From NCBI RefSeq assembly GCF_000812685.1, contig NZ_JWIF01000012.1, positions 62,001 through 126,000 on the forward strand: a stretch of 64,000 nucleotides of DNA, read 5' to 3'. The notes beneath the pieces were generated by a model. The model was given only the letters and a program-made list of their open reading frames with translations, was not told the DNA's origin and searched no databases. A program made the translations under genes and the position numbers. This document shows, one piece after another, positions 18,406 through 43,392 of this stretch. Source of the DNA: Halocynthiibacter namhaensis (lineage in GTDB: Bacteria; Pseudomonadota; Alphaproteobacteria; Rhodobacterales; Rhodobacteraceae). The first letter of the stretch is position 1. Each line of letters begins with the position of its first letter.

Positions 18406-18437
18406 ATAAAAGCTCCGCCACATGGCGGAGCTTTTAT
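18406..18437 (+). terminator. Intrinsic terminator of the atp operon
   Basis: A 14-bp perfect stem, ATAAAAGCTCCGCC at 18406-18419 and its complement at 18424-18437, with tetraloop ACAT. The T-rich arm (CTTTTAT) and the following CGTTTTC supply the U-tract. It separates the atp operon from the lectin gene. Confidence 0.9.
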
Positions 18438-30667: not shown

Positions 30668-32296
30668 TCACCCTTGATTTGGGCCGACGCACCTCCCTTT
30701 GCGAATTGTCGTCACGACGCTTATCTCCTTCAGGCTGGCGACATCATCACGAGGGTCTCTTGACAAAATTGCAAAGTCTGCAACTTTCCCTATTTCGATA
30801 GAACCACGTGTGTCTTCCTGAAAAACCTGCCACGCAGCTTCGATGGTTTGGGCGCGCAGTGCAGAGAGCACGGATATCTTTTGGTTTTCACCAAGCGTGC
30901 GTCCGGATGCAGTTACGCGATTGACCGCGCAATGGGCCAGATGAATGGGGCGAGTTGGCGTGACGGCCGCGTCATTGTGCAACGTGTAGCGTACGCCGAA
31001 TCTCTCGGCCGATGCAGCGGGCGAGATATTTTCTGCGCGTTCAGGACCAAGGAAGTTTTCATAATGGCGGTCGCCCCAGAAATGGATGTGAGCTGAGAAA
31101 AAGCTGACCGTCATACCAAGGCGCGCCATGCGCTTGAGTTGATCATCGCGCAGCACCTGACCGTGGATCAATGTATGGCGGTGATCTTGTCGAGGAGTGT
31201 CCTGTAAGGCGGCTTCCACAGCGTCGATAAAGATTTCAGCGCCGGCATCACCGTTGCAATGACAATGGATCTGAAAGCCCATGTCATGGAGTTTTTTCAC
31301 CTGTTTGTGGTGTTCTCCAATATCGGTATAAGGCATACCACGTGGGGCGTTTTCATCGATGGGTTGGTAGTAATCTTTAGACAGAAACGCGGTTTGCAAT
31401 TGAAATGCGCCATCGGTGAACAGCTTGCGTGGACCCAAAGTGAAATGTGGGTTTCCGGGCCATTTCAGTGGGTTGTCACCTTGGGTCAGATCCGGTTCCA
31501 TTTCACCAATCGGCAACAACATAAGATCGATGCCGGGGTCCTGATCTGCGGGCAGGCTTGCGAAATGTTCCAGCATCTCACGGGTGGCCCAGGCGTTCTG
31601 CGCATAGGTCACACCATGGTCCAGATATTCGTCACGCGTGGCGTCAAAACCCTGCCAGAATTTCTTGCGATCAATCAGAAAATCCGTGTCCCCCATCGGG
31701 CCCATCGCGGCGATGCCTTCAATCAGCCCGCTCAGAACACCGGTTTCCGGATCGCGCCCGTATCTGCCGCCAAGGGGATCGGGGGTATCATCGGTAATTC
31801 CCTGTAATTTCAGCGCCATAGAGTTCGCCGTGCCATTGTGACCAGAGGCATGGATGACCCAAACCGGATGATCATTTGAGACCTGATCCAGCTCAGCTCG
31901 GGTGGGCATACGCCCCTCAGCGATGGCGGTATTGTCAAAGGACACGCCCATCACCCATTCGCCAACAGGGGTGCGCGCGGCGCGTGCTTTCAGACGTTCA
32001 ATCGCTTGTGGAATATCGGCACAATCACCGCGCGGGGCCGAGGACAGATCAACGCGAAACAGCTTGATAAACCCCGGATCCGGGAAGTGGCCATGCGGGT
32101 CAATAAAGGCGGGCAGCATTGTTTTGCCTTGTAAATCATGTTCGCGGGTGTCTTGATCCATTTTCTGACGCAATTCCGCTTCACTGCCGATCGCAAGAAT
32201 GTGTTCGCCCTGTGTCAGCACGGCTTCGGGGGTGGAATTGGTGGCATCCATAGAAAGGATCACACCGTTAAAATAAAGGGTCATTGCAGAAGTCAT
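30668..32296 (-). CDS. Amidohydrolase (YtcJ/NfdA-like, amidohydrolase_3 family)
   Basis: A 542-aa metal-dependent hydrolase. It has the N-terminal beta-sandwich (TLYFNGVILSMDA), the TIM-barrel metal motif MLPAFIDPHGHFPDPG (about residues 60-75, the HxH ligands), HCHCNGDAGAEIFIDAVEAA (about 342-361), HTLIHGQVLRDDQLKRMA (about 371-388) and the final Asp in YTLHNDAAVTPTRPIHLA. YtcJ-like enzymes include N-substituted formamide deformylase. It is the last gene of the peptide-type ABC operon, 14 bases after the ATPase gene, so it probably hydrolyses the imported compound. ATG 32296 has CGGA upstream; ATG 32284 is four codons in. Confidence 0.88.
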   Translation of the reverse strand: MTSAMTLYFNGVILSMDATNSTPEAVLTQGEHILAIGSEAELRQKMDQDTREHDLQGKTMLPAFIDPHGHFPDPGFIKLFRVDLSSAPRGDCADIPQAIERLKARAARTPVGEWVMGVSFDNTAIAEGRMPTRAELDQVSNDHPVWVIHASGHNGTANSMALKLQGITDDTPDPLGGRYGRDPETGVLSGLIEGIAAMGPMGDTDFLIDRKKFWQGFDATRDEYLDHGVTYAQNAWATREMLEHFASLPADQDPGIDLMLLPIGEMEPDLTQGDNPLKWPGNPHFTLGPRKLFTDGAFQLQTAFLSKDYYQPIDENAPRGMPYTDIGEHHKQVKKLHDMGFQIHCHCNGDAGAEIFIDAVEAALQDTPRQDHRHTLIHGQVLRDDQLKRMARLGMTVSFFSAHIHFWGDRHYENFLGPERAENISPAASAERFGVRYTLHNDAAVTPTRPIHLAHCAVNRVTASGRTLGENQKISVLSALRAQTIEAAWQVFQEDTRGSIEIGKVADFAILSRDPRDDVASLKEISVVTTIRKGRCVGPNQG

Positions 32297-32310
32297 GCTG
32301 TATTCCGATA

Positions 32311-33234
32311 TTAACGAGGGGTCAGGCAACGCAGGCCGTGATCGTTGTTTACTTCCCATTTTGGGGTTTGAAGGCAAATGTCCGAGGCCACAGGGCAACG
32401 TTCGCGAAATTCGCAACCGCTTGGGCGCTTCAGAAGGCTGGGCGGTTCGCCTTTCAGGGCGATACGTTCCAGCTGGGCATCCGGGTCGGGCTCAGGATTG
32501 GCGGACAGCAAACAATGCGTATAGGGGTGGCGGGGTTCATCAAAGATCGCCTCTGTGCTGCCTTCTTCGACAAGCCGTCCAAGGTAAAGAATGCCCATGC
32601 GATCTGCGATGTGGCGCACAACATTCAGGTTGTGGGTGATAATCACCATGGACAGGCCTAGGCGATCACGCAAGTCGTTCAAAAGGTTTAATAATTCTCC
32701 CTGCACAGACACATCAAGCCCGGCGGTTGGCTCATCCGCGAGGATCAGTTTCGGCTCAAGCGCCAGGGCGCGCGCAACGCCCACGCGACGGGCTTGGCCG
32801 CCAGACAATTGATAAGGATAACGATCCGCAAAATGGGCAGGCAGATTGACCAAAGCCAGCAAGCGTTTGGCCTCGGAATCTATGTCCTTATCTTTCATCC
32901 CCTGGATACGATAGGGTTCAGTGATCAGATTGCGCACGGTGACACGCGGCGAGAGCGACCCAATTGGATCCTGAAACATCATCGCGATGTCTTTGCGCAA
33001 GGGCCGCATGGCACGTTCAGACAGGCCGCGAATTTCCTGGCCGTCAAATTTCACGGAACCCGCCTGTGCCGGCGCAAGGCCGGCAATCGCGCGGATAACC
33101 GTGGTTTTGCCAGATCCGCTTTCCCCGACCATGGCGTAGGTTTCCCCCGGCTGAACCGAAAAGCTGACGCCCGCCAGAACATTGACACTGCCGTAGTTGG
33201 TTCGCAGGTCTTTTACCTCCAAAATCGCGCTCAT
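32311..33234 (-). CDS. Oligopeptide/dipeptide ABC transporter ATPase, DppF-type
   Basis: A 307-aa ATPase of the peptide/nickel uptake family. Walker A is GESGSGKTTVIRAIAG (about residues 37-52), the Q-loop MFQDPIGSLSPR (about 89-100), the ABC signature LSGGQARRVGVARALALEP (about 142-160) and Walker B LILADEPTAGLDVS. The C-terminal oligo_HPY extension has RHPYTHCLLSANPEPD and a cysteine-bearing CEFRERCPVASDIC, typical of OppF/DppF. Its start overlaps the upstream ATPase gene by four bases. Confidence 0.93.
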   Translation of the reverse strand: MSAILEVKDLRTNYGSVNVLAGVSFSVQPGETYAMVGESGSGKTTVIRAIAGLAPAQAGSVKFDGQEIRGLSERAMRPLRKDIAMMFQDPIGSLSPRVTVRNLITEPYRIQGMKDKDIDSEAKRLLALVNLPAHFADRYPYQLSGGQARRVGVARALALEPKLILADEPTAGLDVSVQGELLNLLNDLRDRLGLSMVIITHNLNVVRHIADRMGILYLGRLVEEGSTEAIFDEPRHPYTHCLLSANPEPDPDAQLERIALKGEPPSLLKRPSGCEFRERCPVASDICLQTPKWEVNNDHGLRCLTPR

Positions 33235-34205
33235 GCCGTGGCCTCCTCAGGGTGATTAAGCCAGCAGGCGGCAAAATGCCCGTCTTTCAGTTTTTCAAGG
33301 GCGGGCACCTGGTGGCATCGCTCGGTAGCCTGTTCGCAGCGGTCGCGGAAAATGCAGCCATCCGGCAGGTTTACCAGATCAGGCACTTCGCCCGGAATGG
33401 TCGGCAGGATGCGCGCGCGGGTTTTGATATGACCGGGATCACATTCGATCAGGCGACGTGTATAGGGGTGTTTGGGGTCATGAAAAATCTCACGGACATC
33501 GCCGCTTTCCACGACGGCCCCTGCATACATCACGACCACACGATCACAAAGTTCTGCGATCACACCAAGATGATTCGAAATGAACAGGATGGCGCAGTTC
33601 ATCTCGCTTTGCAGCTCTTTCAAACGTTCAATGATCTGCACTTCCAGCGTGGCATCAAGCGCGGTAGTCGGTTCATCCGCAATCAACAAATCCGGTTCAG
33701 ACATCAACGCCATCGCAATACGTTGTCGCATCCCGCCTGAGAACTCATGCGGATATTGCTTTAGGCGCGCTTGCGGGTCAGGAATGCCCACCGCGGCAAG
33801 CATCTTCGCCGCGATATCCAGCTTCTGCGCTTTTGTGGCGTTTGAGCGATGTTGAATGTCCACCAACTGCCGTCCGATGGACAAAACCGGGTTATGGGTC
33901 TGCATAGGGTCTTGAAATACAATCGAAATATCAGAACCCCGCAGGTCACGCATCTGACGTTCTGTTTTGGTCAGGATGTCGTCGCCCTTAAAGCGCACTT
34001 CGCCGTGGCGAAACCGGGTGTTGGGGGCGGTGAGGCGTAGGATGGATGAAATCAACGTCGATTTCCCGCATCCGCTTTCGCCAACGATGCCAACGATTTC
34101 GCCTTTTTGCACATCAAAACTGATGTCGCGCAAAGCCTTCAGATCACCCCGTTCGGTTTCGTAATCCACACTGAGATTGTCGATCTCTAACAATGTATCG
34201 CTCAT
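33231..34205 (-). CDS. Oligopeptide/dipeptide ABC transporter ATPase, DppD-type
   Basis: A 324-aa ATPase pairing with the DppF-type protein. Walker A is GESGCGKSTLISSILRL (about residues 38-54), the Q-loop VFQDPMQTHNPVL (about 94-106), the signature FSGGMRQRIAMAL (about 153-165) and Walker B LLIADEPTTALDAT. The C-terminal region has the oligo_HPY motif KHPYTRRLIECDPGH and GCIFRDRCEQATERC with the Cys cluster. It overlaps both neighbours by four bases, which implies coupled, equal synthesis. Confidence 0.93.
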   Translation of the reverse strand: MSDTLLEIDNLSVDYETERGDLKALRDISFDVQKGEIVGIVGESGCGKSTLISSILRLTAPNTRFRHGEVRFKGDDILTKTERQMRDLRGSDISIVFQDPMQTHNPVLSIGRQLVDIQHRSNATKAQKLDIAAKMLAAVGIPDPQARLKQYPHEFSGGMRQRIAMALMSEPDLLIADEPTTALDATLEVQIIERLKELQSEMNCAILFISNHLGVIAELCDRVVVMYAGAVVESGDVREIFHDPKHPYTRRLIECDPGHIKTRARILPTIPGEVPDLVNLPDGCIFRDRCEQATERCHQVPALEKLKDGHFAACWLNHPEEATA

Positions 34206-35059
34206 CTGTTTTTCCTCAGCTTTGGATCAACCACATCGCGCAGGCTTTCCCCCAGAAAGGTGAACCCAAGGGTGGCAAGGATAATGGGCAAGCCGCCACC
34301 GACCACAAGCCAGGGGGTTTGACGGATCAGCGCATAGCCATCTTTCAGCAACGCGCCCCAGCTGGGTGTCGGCGGTTTCACACCAAGGCCCAGAAAGGAC
34401 AGACCCGCTTCAAGGGCGATCACGGTGGGCACATCCATCGCGGCAAGCACCCCAAGAACGCCGATGATGTTGGGCAACATATGCACCCCAAGAATGCGCG
34501 CCATGCTGGCGCCCATCGCGCGTTCCGCCAGGATGAATTCACTGTTGCGCAGGGTCAGGGTTTGCGTGCGCGCCACCCGCCCATAGGTCGGAATGGACGT
34601 GGCCATCACCACCAAAACAACGGTTTGCAGGCTTGGCCCCACGAGGGCAACAACGGCCAATGCAAACATGACGGTCGGAAAGGATCGCAGGGTATCAAAG
34701 AATAACATCAAGAGGTTATCCAGCCATTTTGGCCCATAGCCTGCGATCATTCCCAATGTCAGACCAATCGCCATCGCGCCAAAAACCGCAGGCAAGGCAA
34801 CTTTCAACGCGACCTGCCCCCCCATGATCACGCGCGAAAGCGTGTCACGCCCAAGGTTGTCCGTGCCCAGCCAATGGGACCAGGACGGGCCTTGCATGCG
34901 ATCAGGGATATTCATTCCAATGGGGTCATAGGGCACGATCCAGGCGGCAAAAATCGCGCTGACGACAATCGTGCCCACAATGATCAAACCAATCAGACCC
35001 AGGGGATCTTTTGCGACGCCACGCAGGATAATACTAAGTTCGGAACGGGGTTTTGACAT
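34202..35059 (-). CDS. Peptide-type ABC transporter permease, DppC-type
   Basis: A 285-aa inner-membrane permease with about six helices. After the N-terminal helix (LIGLIIVGTIVVSAIFAAWI) come the conserved WLGTDNLGRDTLSRVIMGGQ (about residues 63-82), characteristic of DppC/OppC, and the coupling EAA loop FILAERAMGASMARILGVHM with LPNIIGV. It forms the transmembrane channel with the DppB-type protein. It starts 12 bases after the DppB gene and overlaps the next ATPase gene by four. Confidence 0.92.
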   Translation of the reverse strand: MSKPRSELSIILRGVAKDPLGLIGLIIVGTIVVSAIFAAWIVPYDPIGMNIPDRMQGPSWSHWLGTDNLGRDTLSRVIMGGQVALKVALPAVFGAMAIGLTLGMIAGYGPKWLDNLLMLFFDTLRSFPTVMFALAVVALVGPSLQTVVLVVMATSIPTYGRVARTQTLTLRNSEFILAERAMGASMARILGVHMLPNIIGVLGVLAAMDVPTVIALEAGLSFLGLGVKPPTPSWGALLKDGYALIRQTPWLVVGGGLPIILATLGFTFLGESLRDVVDPKLRKNR

Positions 35060-35071
35060 GGTTTTCGTTCC

Positions 35072-36010
35072 TTATTTCGCGCTGCGTGCGCGGGGATCAA
35101 GAAGGGCGTTCAATAGATCTGCAATGGCCGTTGAAAGCACAAACAACCCGGTTGAGACCAAAACAGTGCCCATCACAACGGGGTAATTTCGGGTGGTGAT
35201 GCTATCAATCACAAGCTTGCCGATGCCAGGGCGGGCAAAGACGATTTCGGTGAAAACAGCGGAACTTAGCAAAAATCCCATGCCGACACCGATCACGGTG
35301 ACAACCGGCAGGATCGCGATGCGCAGGGCATAACTCATGATGATGCGACGTTCCGAAAGACCAAAAGCACGTGCGGTTCGGATATGGCCTTCGCCCAGAA
35401 CCTCAAGCATAGAGGCCCGCACAAGACGCGCAATATAGCCAACCCAGCTGAGGCCAATGGCAAAGGACGGCAACACCAGATGGTTCAGGCGCCCCCAAAA
35501 GCCCTCGCCCGCGCCGATGGCGGGAAACCATTGCAATTGCACCGCAAAAATCAGCAAAGCCAGCAAGGCGACCACAAATGCGGGCGCGGCGACGAAGCTT
35601 ACGGAAACGGCGGCGGCGATACGGTCAATCATCGTATTAGGGTGTGCTGCGGCATAGGCCCCAAGGGCAATCCCAAGGGCTGCGGACCAGAGGACAGAAA
35701 GGGTGATCATCTCAAGCGTATAGGGAAGTTGCTGAAAGACGATCTCAACCACGGAACGCCCGGAAAAGACATCAATGCCCAGATCCCCGCGCAGCAATCC
35801 CCCGTAGTAGATCAGCAATTGTTTCCAGATCGGTTGATCCAGTGCCATTTGCGCAATCAGGGAGGCCTTAAGTTCCGGCGTGGCGCGCGGCCCAAGCATG
35901 ATCGAGACAGGGTCTCCGGGGACGGCGCGGATCATCAAGAACATGGCGGTGACCGCCACAATCAGGATCAGCCCCGCCAAAGCGAACCGTTTCACAGTAT
36001 AAATAAACAT
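35072..36010 (-). CDS. Peptide-type ABC transporter permease, DppB-type
   Basis: A 312-aa permease with six helices and the DppB/OppB family start FIYTVKRFALAGLILI. The signature AVPGDPVSIMLG (about residues 29-40) and the EAA loop GLSERRIIMSYALRIAILPV (about 200-219) are clear, as is the closing DLLNALLDPRAR. I place the start at ATG 36010. GTG 36016 is also in frame, with AGGGAG close upstream. The 68-base gap to the solute-binding protein gene holds no terminator that I can see, so the operon is continuous. Confidence 0.92.
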   Translation of the reverse strand: MFIYTVKRFALAGLILIVAVTAMFLMIRAVPGDPVSIMLGPRATPELKASLIAQMALDQPIWKQLLIYYGGLLRGDLGIDVFSGRSVVEIVFQQLPYTLEMITLSVLWSAALGIALGAYAAAHPNTMIDRIAAAVSVSFVAAPAFVVALLALLIFAVQLQWFPAIGAGEGFWGRLNHLVLPSFAIGLSWVGYIARLVRASMLEVLGEGHIRTARAFGLSERRIIMSYALRIAILPVVTVIGVGMGFLLSSAVFTEIVFARPGIGKLVIDSITTRNYPVVMGTVLVSTGLFVLSTAIADLLNALLDPRARSAK

Positions 36011-36078
36011 TCCCACATGGCTCCCTGGGCTGTGCGGCAGATATGGGCGCGACGATCAGGCCGCGCCCATATGTCAGA

Positions 36079-37640
36079 TCAGGATTTGCCGAAATACCGC
36101 AGCAAGGTCAGACCATCCGGGCGCAGAGCAGGTATGATGCCCGAGGAATGCACAACCGGCGTCGCCTCATGGGTGATAAAGCGGTAAGCGCCGCTTTCTT
36201 CCATCAGATCCTGGGCGCGAATGTACATCTCTGCACGTTTCGCAAGATCGGTTTCGCGGGCCGCATCCGCGTGAAGCTGATCGAATTCCGCATTGCGGAA
36301 GTTCTCCCAGTTCCAGATGCCCGCCTGTTCCGTCGTGAACCAAGCCGTCGCATAAGTCGGATCTGGCGTCATTGAGAAGCGATTCAACACCAGTTGCAGG
36401 TTCTCATTGTTGCCGCTGTCCCAGAAAGCGCCGGATTCAAGCACGTTGATTTCAACGGTGATCCCAATGCCAGCCAGGGTCGCCTGAATGATCTGGGCGG
36501 TGGTGGTGAAGGTCGTTTTATTCAACACATCCAAGGTCAATGAGACATTGGTTTCACCGGATTCAGCCATAAGTTCAGCCGCGCGCGCAAAGTCAGCCGC
36601 GGGGGCAACTTTGCCAGCTTGACGGTGCCCAGCAAGGCCAGGGGCTATGATCCCGGTAGACGGTTCAACCGCACCGAAATAGGCAGCTTCCAGGATGGAA
36701 GGCACGTCAATCGCGTGCTGAATGGCCTGACGCAGCTTGGGATTTTGCAGCTTGGGATGGTCAAGATTCATGCCCAGCCACACGTAAAACAGCGATGGGT
36801 TTTCAACCAGGGTGCCGCCATTTGGCACGCCTGCGCGGTAATGTTCAACGGAGCCAAGCGACACGCGGGTGAAGTCCAGCTCGCCTGCTTCAAAGGCGAT
36901 CTCAGCGGTGTTTTCGTCATCGATTGGCAGGATTTCGATGTTGTCCCAAGCCGGGGCGTCCCCCTTCCAATCCGGGTTGCGTGTCAGAACGGTTTTTTCC
37001 TTCGGGCTCCAGCTGGCGCGCAGATATGGACCGGATTCAGCAGCCGGATCTGTGCCGATACGTCCGCCTGCGGCTTCGGTCGCCGCTTTGGACACGATAT
37101 TCCCGGTGATATAGGGCAAGGCGATGGACCAAAGTGGTGCGAAAGGTTCGTTCAACACGATTGTGCCTTCGCGTTCGCCCGTGACCTCAACATGGCTGAA
37201 AGACCCCATGTCAGGCTTGTTCGGGGATTCTGTTTCATCCGCGATAATGCGTTCAAACGAGAATTTCACATCCTCAGCCGTCATGGCGCCGTGGCCATTG
37301 GTGAAGCCAATATCGTCACGCAGCGCAAATTTAATATGTGTCGGATCCGCCTGTTCGATCATTGATGCAGCATCCAATTGCCAACCCCATTCAGACCCCG
37401 GCTTATACTGGATCAGCTTGTTGTAAACCGAGGCGTGAATTTCTTCGTCAAACACGCCGTTGCTGTGGGCCGGGTCCATTGTCGACATGTCGCCGTAAGA
37501 CCGCACGCGCAATGTGCTGCCCTCTGCTGCCATGGCCTGTCCGCCAAACCCCATCGGCATCGCGGCAGTGCGCCCAGGGCCGTCGCGGTCATCAGAAAGT
37601 TGCGCCGCCCCATGGGGGCTTTGGTCCATTCGAGTTTCAT
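36079..37640 (-). CDS. Peptide-type solute-binding protein, frameshifted within its Tat signal
   Basis: Periplasmic SBP_bac_5 family protein, 520 aa if repaired. The start codon at 37640 opens MKLEWTKAPMGRRNFLMTAT, a twin-arginine signal (GRRNFLM), but the frame shifts after ATALGAL at about 37566. Adding one G restores ALAAMPMGFGGQAMAAEGST and runs on into the intact mature domain. That domain shows MDPAHSNGVFDEEIHASVYN, MTAEDVKFSFERI and the lobe motif LRQAIQHAIDVPSILEAA. As written, only the mature part is in one open frame, without a signal, which would leave it in the cytoplasm. An open frame running back to 37839 into the CocE gene is an artefact. Binding substrate unknown. Confidence 0.85.
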
Positions 37641-37661
37641 AGTCTTCTCCCTTTATGTGAT

Positions 37662-39644
37662 TTACAGAAATCCGCGCGCCATGGTCTGGGACCATTCCTT
37701 CACAAGGACTTCGGATTTCAGCGCGCCTTCTGTTGCGCGTATTTTTCGATGTAGATAAAAGTTGTCGGCGTCGCAGGTCATTGAGGTTTCCGTGTCGATT
37801 TCGACCTGCCAGTCGCCGCGCCCATAGGTGAAGTTCCACTGTGATGCATAGCTTGCGCTCAGCGGATCATCAGGATGGATCGCATACCGCAGGGACACAT
37901 GGCTGCCGCTTTCCAAACCATGGCCCGGATCGCGGGATTTCCCATAATCATCAAAGGTTTCCAGAACGATCGTGCCATCGTCTTCCTGACTTTGTTCAAC
38001 GCGCGAGGCGGTGTCGCGCAGCACCTCGCTTTGCAGGGTTGGAAAGCTATCCGCAGCCCCAGGATGTGCTGTGTCACCCGTGTCTGTTGCCCGGCGCACG
38101 GGCAAAGACAGGCTGCTGTTTTCAGTCACAAGCGTGACGGTTGTGGCCTGCGCTGCGGGCCAAAGAATGGGCCAATATGAGGTCGATAACCCCAGGCGTA
38201 AACGATGCCCGGGCCGCAAGCGATGGGACAGTTCATTCAGCTCAATTTCGGCGTCATAGATTTCGCCGGGCAGCAAAAATTCGGGGGTTTCATGGCTTGC
38301 GTGATGCGTCAGATTTAGCGGGCGATAGCTGATCCGCTGCGAGACACCCTCGGGCGAGACATCACATAGGCGCGCCATAAGTTGGGCGGTGGGCTGGTCG
38401 ACGCGAAAGCTGATTTTCAACACAGGCCGTCCAAGCAGTTCCAACGCATCGGGCAATGCATTCGTGTCAAAACAAATGCTTAGCGCGTCATCTGCGGATT
38501 GATCCCCCGGCAATTCATTGTCCACGCGCATGCCCGCGCAAAAATAGCCGCTGGTTTGGCCGACATGGGCGGGGGTTTGCACATGGGTTTCGCCGGGTTG
38601 GGCGCTGTTGGTCAGGCCGTTTGCGCCGAAAAACAGGGTCTGCATTTGAACGTTTTCAGAAGGCCAATTTTCCTCAGATATCCAGCGCCCTTCGCGGGGT
38701 TTATTCTGCGGCGTTGGGTTGAAATGTTCCTGCATGAAGCTGCGATAAGCGGGCAAATCTTCCGCGCCGTTTTGCTCATTTTTCATCCAACGATCAAACC
38801 AACCGATGACCTCTGAATGAAAATCAGCGGCACCCAATTTTGAGATATGGGCATAACGATGTTCCCAGGGGCCAACCAGCGCCTTTGCGTTTGGCAGTGA
38901 CTTCGCAAGCAGGGACGGTGTGTTAACATAAGAATCCGCCCATCCCGTGATGGCAAGAACAGGCAGCTGAACCTTGCTGAAATCCTCACAGATTGAACCA
39001 TGCTTCCAGAACGCATCCCGTGTGGGATGGCTTAGCCATTCCGCCGCAAGATCGGGCAGGTTTTCCATGCGGGCGATCCAATCTTCGCGCCAATCGGGGC
39101 GCAATTCAGGGTCAGCAGGGCGGGACAGATAGGCGAACATTTGGCTGGCCCAATTGGCATTGTCGCTCAGCAAACAGCCGCCCATATAGTGAATGTCATC
39201 GGCGTATCGATCCGCAGTGGAGGCAACAGAAACGACGGCTTTTAAGGCGTTTGGTTGACGATAGGCCAGCTGCAAGCCGTTAAAGCCACCCCAAGAAATT
39301 CCAATGATCCCGATGGAGCCATTGCACCAGGGCTGCGCGGAGATCCATGCGATGATCTCTTCGCCGTCGGACAATTCCTGTTCAGAATATTCGTCGTCAA
39401 AAGACCCTTCGGAATCGCCCGTGCCAGCGATATCCACCCGCACGCAAGCATAGCCTGCCTTGGCAAAAACGCTGTGGGTGGTTTCATCGCGCGCAGCGGT
39501 TCCGTCGCGCTTGCGGTAGGGCAAATATTCCAAGATAGCCGGAGCGCTCTTGACCCCCTCAGGCATCCAAAGCCGCGCCGACAACCGACGCCCATCCCCA
39601 AGCACAACCCATTGCGTTGATGTGTTTTGTCCAAAATCCTGCAC
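37662..39644 (-). CDS. CocE/NonD family hydrolase (X-Pro dipeptidyl-peptidase S15 type)
   Basis: A 660-aa alpha/beta hydrolase of the CocE/NonD family, which cleaves ester or amide bonds (cocaine esterase, X-Pro peptidases). The nucleophile is in GIIGISWGGFNGLQLAY (about residues 112-128), preceded by AGYACVRVDIAGTGDSEG (about 67-84). The catalytic Asp region is ITGWADSYVNTP and the His is in VGPWEHRYAHIS. The C-terminal jelly-roll domain has RLRPGHRLRLGLSTSYWPIL. No signal peptide, so it acts in the cytoplasm. The start is GTG with GAGAAGG eight bases upstream. It heads the transporter operon, 21 bases before the solute-binding protein. Confidence 0.9.
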   Translation of the reverse strand: MQDFGQNTSTQWVVLGDGRRLSARLWMPEGVKSAPAILEYLPYRKRDGTAARDETTHSVFAKAGYACVRVDIAGTGDSEGSFDDEYSEQELSDGEEIIAWISAQPWCNGSIGIIGISWGGFNGLQLAYRQPNALKAVVSVASTADRYADDIHYMGGCLLSDNANWASQMFAYLSRPADPELRPDWREDWIARMENLPDLAAEWLSHPTRDAFWKHGSICEDFSKVQLPVLAITGWADSYVNTPSLLAKSLPNAKALVGPWEHRYAHISKLGAADFHSEVIGWFDRWMKNEQNGAEDLPAYRSFMQEHFNPTPQNKPREGRWISEENWPSENVQMQTLFFGANGLTNSAQPGETHVQTPAHVGQTSGYFCAGMRVDNELPGDQSADDALSICFDTNALPDALELLGRPVLKISFRVDQPTAQLMARLCDVSPEGVSQRISYRPLNLTHHASHETPEFLLPGEIYDAEIELNELSHRLRPGHRLRLGLSTSYWPILWPAAQATTVTLVTENSSLSLPVRRATDTGDTAHPGAADSFPTLQSEVLRDTASRVEQSQEDDGTIVLETFDDYGKSRDPGHGLESGSHVSLRYAIHPDDPLSASYASQWNFTYGRGDWQVEIDTETSMTCDADNFYLHRKIRATEGALKSEVLVKEWSQTMARGFL

Positions 39645-39719
39645 GTTCGTCGCCTTCTCATCCCTTAATTTGGACGACTGTTAACGTTATTCTTGCATCG
39701 CGGAAGTGAGCGAGTGTAA

Positions 39720-39759
39720 GCTATGTGATGCTAGTTGCATCTAACTAGCATCACATAGC
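39720..39759. promoter_or_regulatory. Perfect 17-bp inverted repeat, likely operator
   Basis: GCTATGTGATGCTAGTT (39720-39736) is followed by a six-base spacer GCATCT and its exact reverse complement (39743-39759). Inside it a shorter repeat is nested (GATGC-TAGTT-GCATC). It lies between the divergent CocE operon and the XRE-family gene, and ends just ahead of that gene's AGGA ribosome-binding site and its ATG at 39775. There is no T-run, so it is not a classical terminator. The likeliest role is a dimeric operator for the adjacent regulator; an RNA hairpin that masks the ribosome-binding site is the alternative. Confidence 0.75.
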
Positions 39760-39774
39760 GTCAGGATTTGAGCC

Positions 39775-40578
39775 ATGGGAAATGATTTTTCAGAAAATTT
39801 ACGATCCCTTTGTGCTGAACGTGGCTCAATTGCGCAGGTCTGTCGGGACATTGGAATCAATCGACAACAGTTCAATCGATACCTAAGCGGCAATGGTATG
39901 CCCTCAGCCCATACCCTGCGCCGCATCGCGCGCCACTTCAGAATGACCGAAAGTGACCTGCTGCTTGACCATCAGCCCTTCGTGGAACGGTTCATCCAAA
40001 ATGTGACGTCCAGAAAACGCCGGCCAATGGATGTGATGACCAATATTTTCAGTGGTCAGGCCCGGGACCTTCGCCGATATTTGGGGTTCTATCACGGGCA
40101 TTTTTGTACCCCGTCCTGGGAAGGGACAGCCCTGCGCACATTAATATGGATCAGGGAACAAGATGGCTATGTTGTGTCGCACACATATGAAGTTGCGATT
40201 TCGCCGGATGGCAGCATTCGACAAAGAACGCGCTATAGCGGGCTGTTGTCGTGGCGTGGGAACCGGATTTATCTGATCGAAAATGCGTTTAGTGACGATG
40301 GCTTCATCTCGGAAACGATCCTATTCCCTGCCCATCGTCAGCAAGTCCAATATTTGCGTGGCATGACGGTCGGCGTGGCATCGCGCCCGCGTTTGTCGCC
40401 TTATTCATCCCCCACGATCTGGAAACGCGTCAGTGAAACCGTTTCAGCCCGCGAAGCCATTGGCGCTTGCGGTGCTATCGCGTTAACCAGTTCAAGGTTG
40501 GACCCAACCATCCAAAGGCTTCTTTCGGAAAGCCAGGAGCAAGGCAGCACCTTCTCCACAATTCAAGGATTATTTTGA
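39775..40578 (+). CDS. XRE-family helix-turn-helix regulator with a unique C-terminal domain
   Basis: A 267-aa protein. The N-terminal HTH_3 domain covers about residues 5-62 (SIAQVCRDIGINRQQFNRYL then PSAHTLRRIARHFRMTESDL). The remaining ~200 residues contain repeated aromatic-rich strands (YLGFYHGHFCTPSWEG, YSGLLSWRGNRIYLIENAF) and look like a ligand- or protein-binding domain I do not recognise. It is divergent from the CocE/ABC operon and has a perfect inverted repeat directly in front of it. It probably autoregulates and controls that operon. Confidence 0.82.
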   Translation: MGNDFSENLRSLCAERGSIAQVCRDIGINRQQFNRYLSGNGMPSAHTLRRIARHFRMTESDLLLDHQPFVERFIQNVTSRKRRPMDVMTNIFSGQARDLRRYLGFYHGHFCTPSWEGTALRTLIWIREQDGYVVSHTYEVAISPDGSIRQRTRYSGLLSWRGNRIYLIENAFSDDGFISETILFPAHRQQVQYLRGMTVGVASRPRLSPYSSPTIWKRVSETVSAREAIGACGAIALTSSRLDPTIQRLLSESQEQGSTFSTIQGLF

Positions 40579-41130
40579 CGAAAGCTACGCATTTCTGGCG
40601 AGCCGTAACCAGTCGAAGGGAGTTGGCTGTTGGGGCGGTATTATAGAAGAAATACACCTGTTTCGGGTTCTGGTTTTCCATCAGACATCAGTCATTTCAA
40701 GTATCAGTGAAGGATTGATTGAAAATCCGGTTTGCGACAATGTTTGCGTTCATTATTCGGCCCTGAAACACGTCCACAAAGTGGGGTATCTCGCAAGCCC
40801 TTAACTGCCAAGGTTTCGATTGAAATTCGAGTGTTCACTGTGAAATTGTTTGGGGCGTAAGCTTCGGAACGTGAGCTGGCATGCCTGAGGTTTGATTTCC
40901 CTCTCGAACACGCAAGCTGTCCGACACAGCAGTCGTGGATCTTTGCACAAATGACTAATCCATTGGGCGAGAATTAGAAGTGCGCGCGTGGTAGGCCTTC
41001 GGCGCGAAATTCCCTAGGAAAGGCCGTCAGGTTTTTTGCATGATGATGACGGTCACATGAATATGCATCTTCAATAAAGGGGTGCTGAGAGGCTAGAACG
41101 AATGATCATGAAATTCTTATAGGTCTTTGC
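40579..41130. other. Intergenic region before groESL, nothing recognised
   Basis: About 550 bases with no plausible gene. Short open frames have no ribosome-binding site or recognisable product, and I saw no tRNA, transposon ends or long repeats. The groESL control signals begin at its right end. Confidence 0.45.
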
Positions 41131-41159
41131 CTTGACTTGACTTCCTCACGGTCCTATCT
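41131..41159 (+). promoter_or_regulatory. Probable RpoH-type heat-shock promoter of groESL
   Basis: CTTGAC (41131-41136) and CCTATCT (41153-41159), 16 bases apart, resemble the sigma-32 pattern CTTGAA-N-CCYATNT. They lie just upstream of the CIRCE element, so the operon could be under both RpoH activation and HrcA repression, as reported for other alphaproteobacteria. Confidence 0.55.
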
Positions 41160-41167
41160 CTTTTGTA

Positions 41168-41194
41168 TTATCACTCACCATAGGTGAGTGCTAA
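41168..41194 (+). promoter_or_regulatory. CIRCE element (HrcA operator)
   Basis: TTATCACTC-N9-GAGTGCTAA at 41168-41194 matches the CIRCE consensus TTAGCACTC-N9-GAGTGCTAA with one mismatch (T for G at the fourth base of the left arm). It lies 73 bases before groES. HrcA binds this repeat to repress groESL until heat shock. Confidence 0.92.
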
Positions 41195-41267
41195 TACCGG
41201 AATACCGGAGAGATTGCCCTTTGCTGAAAAGGGCCCAAAACGTAACATAAGCCAGGAGTTATCCAAC

Positions 41268-41555
41268 ATGGCATTGAAACCACTGCACGATCGCGTGCTT
41301 GTCCGCCGTACTGAAAGCGACGAAAAAACCGCTGGTGGCTTGTACATTCCTGATAGCGCAAAAGAAAAACCAGCTGAAGGCACTGTTGTGGCTTGCGGCG
41401 AAGGTCTGCGCAAAGATTCAGGCGAGCTGATCGCAATGGCTGTTAAAGACGGCGACACAATTCTGTTCGGCAAATGGTCCGGCACAGAAGTAACTGTCGA
41501 CGGCGAAGAGCTTCTGATGATGAAAGAAAGCGACATCATGGGGATCATTTCCTAA
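41268..41555 (+). CDS. groES: Co-chaperonin GroES
   Basis: A 95-aa lid of the GroEL folding chamber. It has the family N-terminus ([20 protein letters not shown]), the mobile loop [15 protein letters not shown] (about residues 21-35), and the terminal DIMGIIS. Length is standard. AGGAG stands before the ATG at 41268. The CIRCE element and heat-shock promoter lie upstream, and groEL follows after 63 bases. Confidence 0.97.
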
Positions 41556-41594
41556 TTTTAGGATCTGACCACGTGCCACGCACTTTCTATCTGA

Positions 41595-43265
<1,671 letters not shown>

Positions 43266-43350: not shown

Positions 43351-43392
43351 AAATAAAAGGGGCTGCTCATAATTGGGCAGCCCCTTTTATTT
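43351..43392 (+). terminator. Intrinsic terminator of groESL
   Basis: A perfect 16-bp stem, AAATAAAAGGGGCTGC (43351-43366) with its complement at 43377-43392, loop of ten; the right arm ends CCCCTTTTATTT and provides the U-rich tract. A second, smaller palindrome (GAATTTCC-TTAA-GGAAATTC, 43269-43288) lies right behind the groEL stop and may protect the 3' end or add to termination. Confidence 0.88.

Follow-up and report, generated by a model that had tools for sequence, protein, structure and literature searches.

The window analysed here, a stretch of 64,000 nucleotides of the Halocynthiibacter namhaensis contig NZ_JWIF01000012.1, encodes a 267-aa XRE-type regulator (39775–40578, + strand), upstream of which a Shine-Dalgarno-like AGGA (39763–39766, +) was placed on the basis of the sequence. 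The divergent gene codes for a CocE/NonD-type hydrolase (37662–39644, − strand; ORF with Peptidase_S15 and PepX_C domain matches) and is the first of an oligopeptide-ABC operon extending to about 30668. This operon further comprises genes for a solute-binding protein family 5 of the oligopeptide type (36079–37839, −; the true start probably lies within the ORF), two ABC permeases and two ATP-binding proteins (32311–36016, −; ORFs), and an amidohydrolase-like ORF (30668–32416, −), which is probably the last operon gene. The order of the transporter genes is annotated in the related loci L052 and L054, both of which carry an annotated amidohydrolase in the same place.

The regulator possesses a Cro/C1-type helix-turn-helix (HTH) domain at residues 8–63 with the recognition helix at about residues 30–37 (INRQQFNRY). 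Matches to HTH_26 (E 1.2e-7) and HTH_31 (E 1.2e-6) were both above the Pfam cut-off, a match to HTH_3 was below it, and the C-terminal part of the protein matched no Pfam or NCBIfam family. Membership in the RstR family (NF041951) was rejected at 24.1 bits versus an NCBIfam cut-off of 80. AlphaFold2 prediction with the window, L030 and L031 proteins yielded a mean pLDDT of 42.0, with 39 of 267 residues at 70–90 and the rest lower; the model, confident in the HTH only, contains helices at 19–26 and 30–37. Sequence searches of solved structures with profile A3 returned HTH-sized matches only (2kpj, E 1e-5; 3op9, E 0.009). Seven paralogues of the regulator, inspected by eye, are present in the same genome.

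The 130-bp gap between the hydrolase start (39644, −) and the regulator ATG (39775, +) harbours a perfect inverted repeat with arms at 39720–39736 and 39743–39759 (17/17 nt complementary) and a 6-nt loop at 39737–39742. A sequence-only reading of this DNA had described perfect 17-bp arms six bases apart, and its coordinates proved exact. Among the perfect inverted repeats of the 64-kb window whose loop does not exceed about 20, it is the longest; by simple arithmetic, ~64000 × 21 × 4^-17 = 8e-5 repeats with 17-bp arms and loops of 0–20 are expected in 64 kb of random sequence. Next in length are perfect inverted repeats at 43351–43392 (16-bp arms), 18406–18437 (15) and 2195–2226 (13), the first of which is located 86 bases 3' of a groEL-like ORF and has a terminator-like appearance. 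The location assigned to the 17-bp repeat by the same reading, between the divergent regulator and operon and abutting the ribosome-binding site, is correct, and the word "abutting" is fair since only 3 bases separate the end of the right arm from AGGA. The nested GATGC/GCATC motif that it had pointed out is likewise present, with GCATC occurring in the loop (39737–39741) and in the right arm (39748–39752), and corresponds to the half-site phasing described below.

An intrinsic terminator was rejected, because the stem is not followed by a T-tract (GTCAGGATTTG) and scanning of 39500–39900 revealed no terminator-like site. In the same interval no sigma-70-like site was called, and no Rfam family matched within 36000–43000 at the gathering score. 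The exact palindrome, searched as a 32-letter pattern, had no match in the genome-contig collection, which perhaps does not include its own genome.

Related loci were collected by searches with the regulator, which had matches in 2 of 61 genomes at E ≤ 1e-40, in 18 genomes of a family sample of 394 at E ≤ 1e-35, and at 1e-60 in 2 of 101 and 1 of 61 genomes. Two further loci were obtained from the genome-contig collection, and 15 regions were taken among 146 plasmid records. L031 (without upstream DNA) and L032 (a duplicate of L030) did not enter the operator analysis, which drew on 37 loci with upstream DNA, including the window. The 20 closest loci, sharing at least 44 % identity with the window protein, constitute alignment A2, while the 17 distant loci (30–39 % identity) were kept out of it and tested separately because no register could be obtained.

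The gene directly divergent from the regulator has an intact CocE N-terminus in 17 of the 37 loci (window included) and codes for the solute-binding protein in 14; CocE is present in the other orientation in one locus, and five have neither gene in the examined flank. Named carriers of the regulator include Phaeobacter inhibens DSM 17395 (homologue WP_014881798.1; plasmid pPGA1_262), Ruegeria, Leisingera and rhizobial plasmids. C-terminal remnants of CocE were noted in L052 (8516–8659), L056 (2016–2165) and L038 (990–1190), those in L052 and L056 being annotated as "hypothetical protein"; no CocE was found upstream in L057 and L058. Since these loci retain the regulator, the operator array and the solute-binding gene, they point to repeated loss of the hydrolase.

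Across the operator columns of A2, all 20 rows of which align there without internal gap, a half-site of ~7 bp with the approximate consensus TTKRNGC recurs in 10-bp steps just 5' of the regulator start, three times in forward (columns 23–29, 33–39 and 43–49) and twice in reversed orientation (columns 66–72 and 76–82). Its GC columns (28–29, 38–39, 48–49, 66–67 and 76–77) hold 1.2–2.0 bits each among the 19 relatives. In the window, A2 assigns the forward half-sites to GAGC (39708–39711), AAGC (39718–39721) and GATGC (39727–39731), a forward chain of three at 10-bp steps, and the reversed ones to GCATC (39748–39752) and GCGTC (39758–39762). This chain and the conserved GC columns delimit the proposed operator at 39708–39762 (no strand assigned). 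The central GCATC (39737–39741), one base out of phase, is a weaker element with counterparts in some A2 rows.

The perfect repeat spans the second to the fifth half-site of the array and is not conserved in the relatives, nor even in L030, the protein of which is 90 % identical. Looking for the same repeat upstream of orthologues, as the sequence-only reading had proposed, thus gave a divided answer: the repeat as such does not recur, and the half-sites within it do. The conserved unit is a set of short half-sites, not a stem. The genome itself contains no second full-match copy of the operator pattern; with up to three mismatches, the four-half-site pattern hit the operator and two further places with three mismatches each, the reversed-pattern control giving no hit.

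The phasing was analysed upstream of 22 relatives made non-redundant at <70 % identity, with the window and L030 excluded and dinucleotide shuffles as controls. Pairs of RNGC at a distance of 10 bp occurred 30 times versus 4.9 in shuffles (0/1000 as high), at 20 bp 21 times versus 4.3 (0/1000) and at 30 bp 12 times versus 3.9 (1/1000). RNGC spacing inside the genes of the relatives was flat, with none of these peaks. At least one strict RNGC pair at 10 bp was present in 15 of the 22 relatives (shuffle mean 4.2, most 12) and absent in seven. Weaker excesses at 18 bp (12/1000 shuffles as high) and 28 bp (8/1000) have no explanation.

Forward chains of at least three half-sites at 10-bp steps were detected in 12 of the 17 distant loci, where shuffles gave a mean of 0.25 and at most 2, and in 7 of the 20 close loci, where they gave a mean of 0.17 and likewise at most 2. 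Forward phasing thus has firm support across the regulator family. Reversed chains of three were restricted to 2 of the 17 distant loci, both from near-identical Sinorhizobium, and were absent from all 20 loci of the close group; reversed chains of two occurred in 9 of the latter, which is within the shuffle range (mean 3.7, most 10). As this count does not stand out clearly from the shuffles, the evidence for reversed half-sites in the close group comes from column conservation in the alignment and from complementarity, not from the chains. In the two Sinorhizobium loci (L061 and L066), three forward and four reversed GC half-sites occupy the same stretch at about −50 to −10, an arrangement from which other rhizobial loci differ. 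No strict half-site chain was found in L045 and L046.

The complementarity of the dyad was evaluated separately for half-sites and spacers. In the 19 relatives, Watson-Crick pairs form at 103 of 133 half-site positions (77 %), compared to 8–30 % after sliding by 1–3 bases, and at 77 of 190 spacer positions (41 %), compared to 38 % in a shuffle control with pairing partners swapped between sequences. If the 17 pairs of the window are imposed on all 20 rows and G-U is allowed, 64.1 % of 340 cells pair, versus 57.9 % in shuffled (2/500 as high) and 31–43 % in slid controls; pairing above both controls indicates real conservation of the dyad with covariation, and the pairs kept across the A2 rows are those of the half-sites. 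Complementarity limited to half-sites is what a symmetric DNA operator would predict, whereas a functional RNA stem would need paired spacers.

These data bear on the alternative that the repeat forms a hairpin in the 5' leader RNA, either gating the ribosome-binding site of the regulator or serving as a protein-binding stem. The predicted stem of the window is indeed strong and ends 3 bases 5' of AGGA: as RNA, a 91-nt stretch folds at −32.6 kcal/mol (z −4.5; 0/200 shuffles equal) and the 40-mer at −27.5 kcal/mol (z −8.6), the latter being the sole 40-mer to form one unbroken stem. Further points in favour of a hairpin are the A2 covariation measures, which exceed most shuffles, and the 40-mers of four Leisingera loci (z −3.6 to −4.3 versus their own shuffles, with broken stems) and of L036, L048 and L055 (z about −2.4). 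The remaining twelve 40-mers, however, reach −1.8 or weaker, the nearest relative L030 retains only 4 of 10 spacer pairs (z −1.2), spacer pairing in the relatives stays at the shuffled level, and RNAalifold on A2 predicted no pair and no common RNA structure. A conserved structured RNA leader was rejected on these grounds (no RNAalifold pairs and spacers at the shuffled level, with half-sites that stay complementary), and an RNA hairpin as the explanation of the repeat is regarded as highly improbable. The proposal of the sequence-only reading that a hairpin controls translation accordingly finds no support as a conserved function, given 77/190 paired spacer positions against 38 % in shuffles. 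In the window's species, a strong RNA hairpin would form if the repeat is transcribed through, and it might have an effect in this species alone.

The same reading had suggested that the arms are longer than one XRE dimer site usually requires, so that the repeat may bind two dimers. This suggestion is supported by the 10-bp-phased array of 7-bp half-sites with its dyad, as well as by an altered half-site in the clade with an altered recognition helix. Conservation of the regulator is highest in the HTH, and most A2 rows have the recognition helix INRQQFNRY. Among the 16 rows with Arg30, column 45 varies, with G in 12 and T in 4, and column 70 holds C in 14, one of which (L049) is misaligned at that place. 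In all four rows with Gln or Pro at position 30, column 45 is T and column 70 is A or T. Because these four rows form one clade, the association of recognition helix and half-site amounts to a single phylogenetic contrast, which speaks for binding by the linked regulator, short of proof. The array might alternatively be the operator of a different regulator, unlinked or global, that is common to these operons. Against this stand the change of the half-sites in the clade with the changed helix and the position of the array, which adjoins the gene of the linked regulator regardless of whether CocE, the solute-binding gene or, in the examined flank, neither of them is divergent, and involvement of another regulator is considered very unlikely.

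Taken as an operator of the linked regulator, the perfect repeat seems to be a conserved DNA switch in a form that is unusually symmetrical in this one species, and its symmetry calls for a separate account. In the window, 10 of 10 spacer pairs are complementary, compared to 2 to 7 in the 19 relatives (most in L033, 7/10); by chance, 10/10 would arise at ~3e-5 if the relatives' columns were independent, a value to be read with the choice of this row for its perfect pairing in mind. Relative to L030, the window differs at 8 of 17 positions in the left arm, 3 of 17 in the right arm and none of 6 in the loop, as well as at 3 of 35 positions upstream and 7 of the 15 bases downstream of the repeat. 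A template switch that rewrote the left arm from the right arm, an origin compatible with operator function, has a somewhat less than even chance of being correct. Besides the complete spacer pairing, the distribution of differences from L030 over the arms and loop is the expected residue of right-to-left copying, and PMC7202029 describes that template switching turns quasi-palindromes perfect in E. coli. The likeness lies in the expected outcome, an imperfect inverted repeat made perfect by arm copying (PMC7202029), and the difference in that the event is deduced here from one near relative only. Creation of hairpin stems by template switching in a single event is described in PMC8794818. The contrast between left and right arm alone is, however, not significant (arms, p 0.14; spacers, 7/10 v 2/10, p 0.07), the downstream 15 bases also differ at 7 places, no relative nearer than L030 fixes the direction, and selection for symmetry is an alternative. 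The spacer complementarity is probably an extra arising from a template switch (quasi-palindrome correction) or drift, rather than a conserved RNA stem.

Comparison of the loci provides the half-sites, their phasing, the dyad, their conservation and the association with the recognition helix. On this basis, the repeat very likely belongs to the operator of the adjacent XRE regulator, which would also serve the divergent CocE/oligopeptide-ABC operon and accommodate several subunits, and the regulator probably controls itself and the neighbouring peptide-uptake genes. We infer binding, an oligomeric state, repression rather than activation, and a ligand as follows. The array would lie between the divergent promoters and reach up to the ribosome-binding site of the regulator; several regulator subunits, aligned at the phased half-sites along one face of the helix, would repress the CocE/oligopeptide-ABC operon together with the promoter of the regulator gene; a ligand at the C-terminal domain, perhaps a peptide imported or cut by products of the operon, would relieve repression.

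It is nothing unusual for an XRE regulator to have its operator at its own gene; the variant lies in the one-turn direct-repeat array. Autoregulatory operators of XRE proteins (lambda Cro/CI-type) resemble the present one in the HTH_26/Cro-C1-type domain, the short half-site dyad and the location at the start of the regulator gene, in a divergent intergenic region. They differ from it in that here runs of three or four half-sites share one orientation and succeed one another every helical turn (10 bp), and in that many distant relatives have direct repeats only; a single symmetric dimer site would not require this. C-proteins of restriction-modification systems possess tandem dimer sites. Likewise Cro-like regulators acting near their own start in a divergent layout, which for the present regulator is predicted from sequence, they are set apart by its 267 aa with an extra C-terminal part, its other site layout and the lack of restriction-modification genes at this locus. 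PMC6237814 describes C-proteins such as C.Kpn2I as small Cro-like regulators that control their own expression from a binding site close to the promoter, with divergent promoters.

For the regulator family, its operator and the one-turn direct-repeat array, no description was found in the open-access papers searched, a scope outside which most subscription journals lie. A bolder version of the operator reading would have an undescribed alphaproteobacterial XRE family read a phased array with one subunit per 10-bp turn, head-to-tail on direct repeats in rhizobial loci and head-to-tail plus dyad in CocE-linked loci, the window palindrome arising from a template switch and doubling as an RNA hairpin at the ribosome-binding site of the regulator; in this full form it is rather unlikely. 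If direct-repeat arrays were bound head-to-tail, this would be an unusual mode for an XRE protein. The operator reading offers a testable DNA-recognition rule (half-site, 10-bp phase and Arg30 contact) for a regulator family that lacks a Pfam C-terminal domain and neighbours operons for oligopeptide uptake on plasmids of roseobacters and rhizobia. It also illustrates that a striking perfect palindrome can mislead, as the functional signal is carried by a fraction of its bases.

The distribution of the regulator points to gene loss or transfer. Two genomes of the same genus (G001 and G002) had no match to the regulator at E ≤ 1e-40, and Cochlodiniinecator, a different genus, carries a regulator 90 % identical to the window protein.
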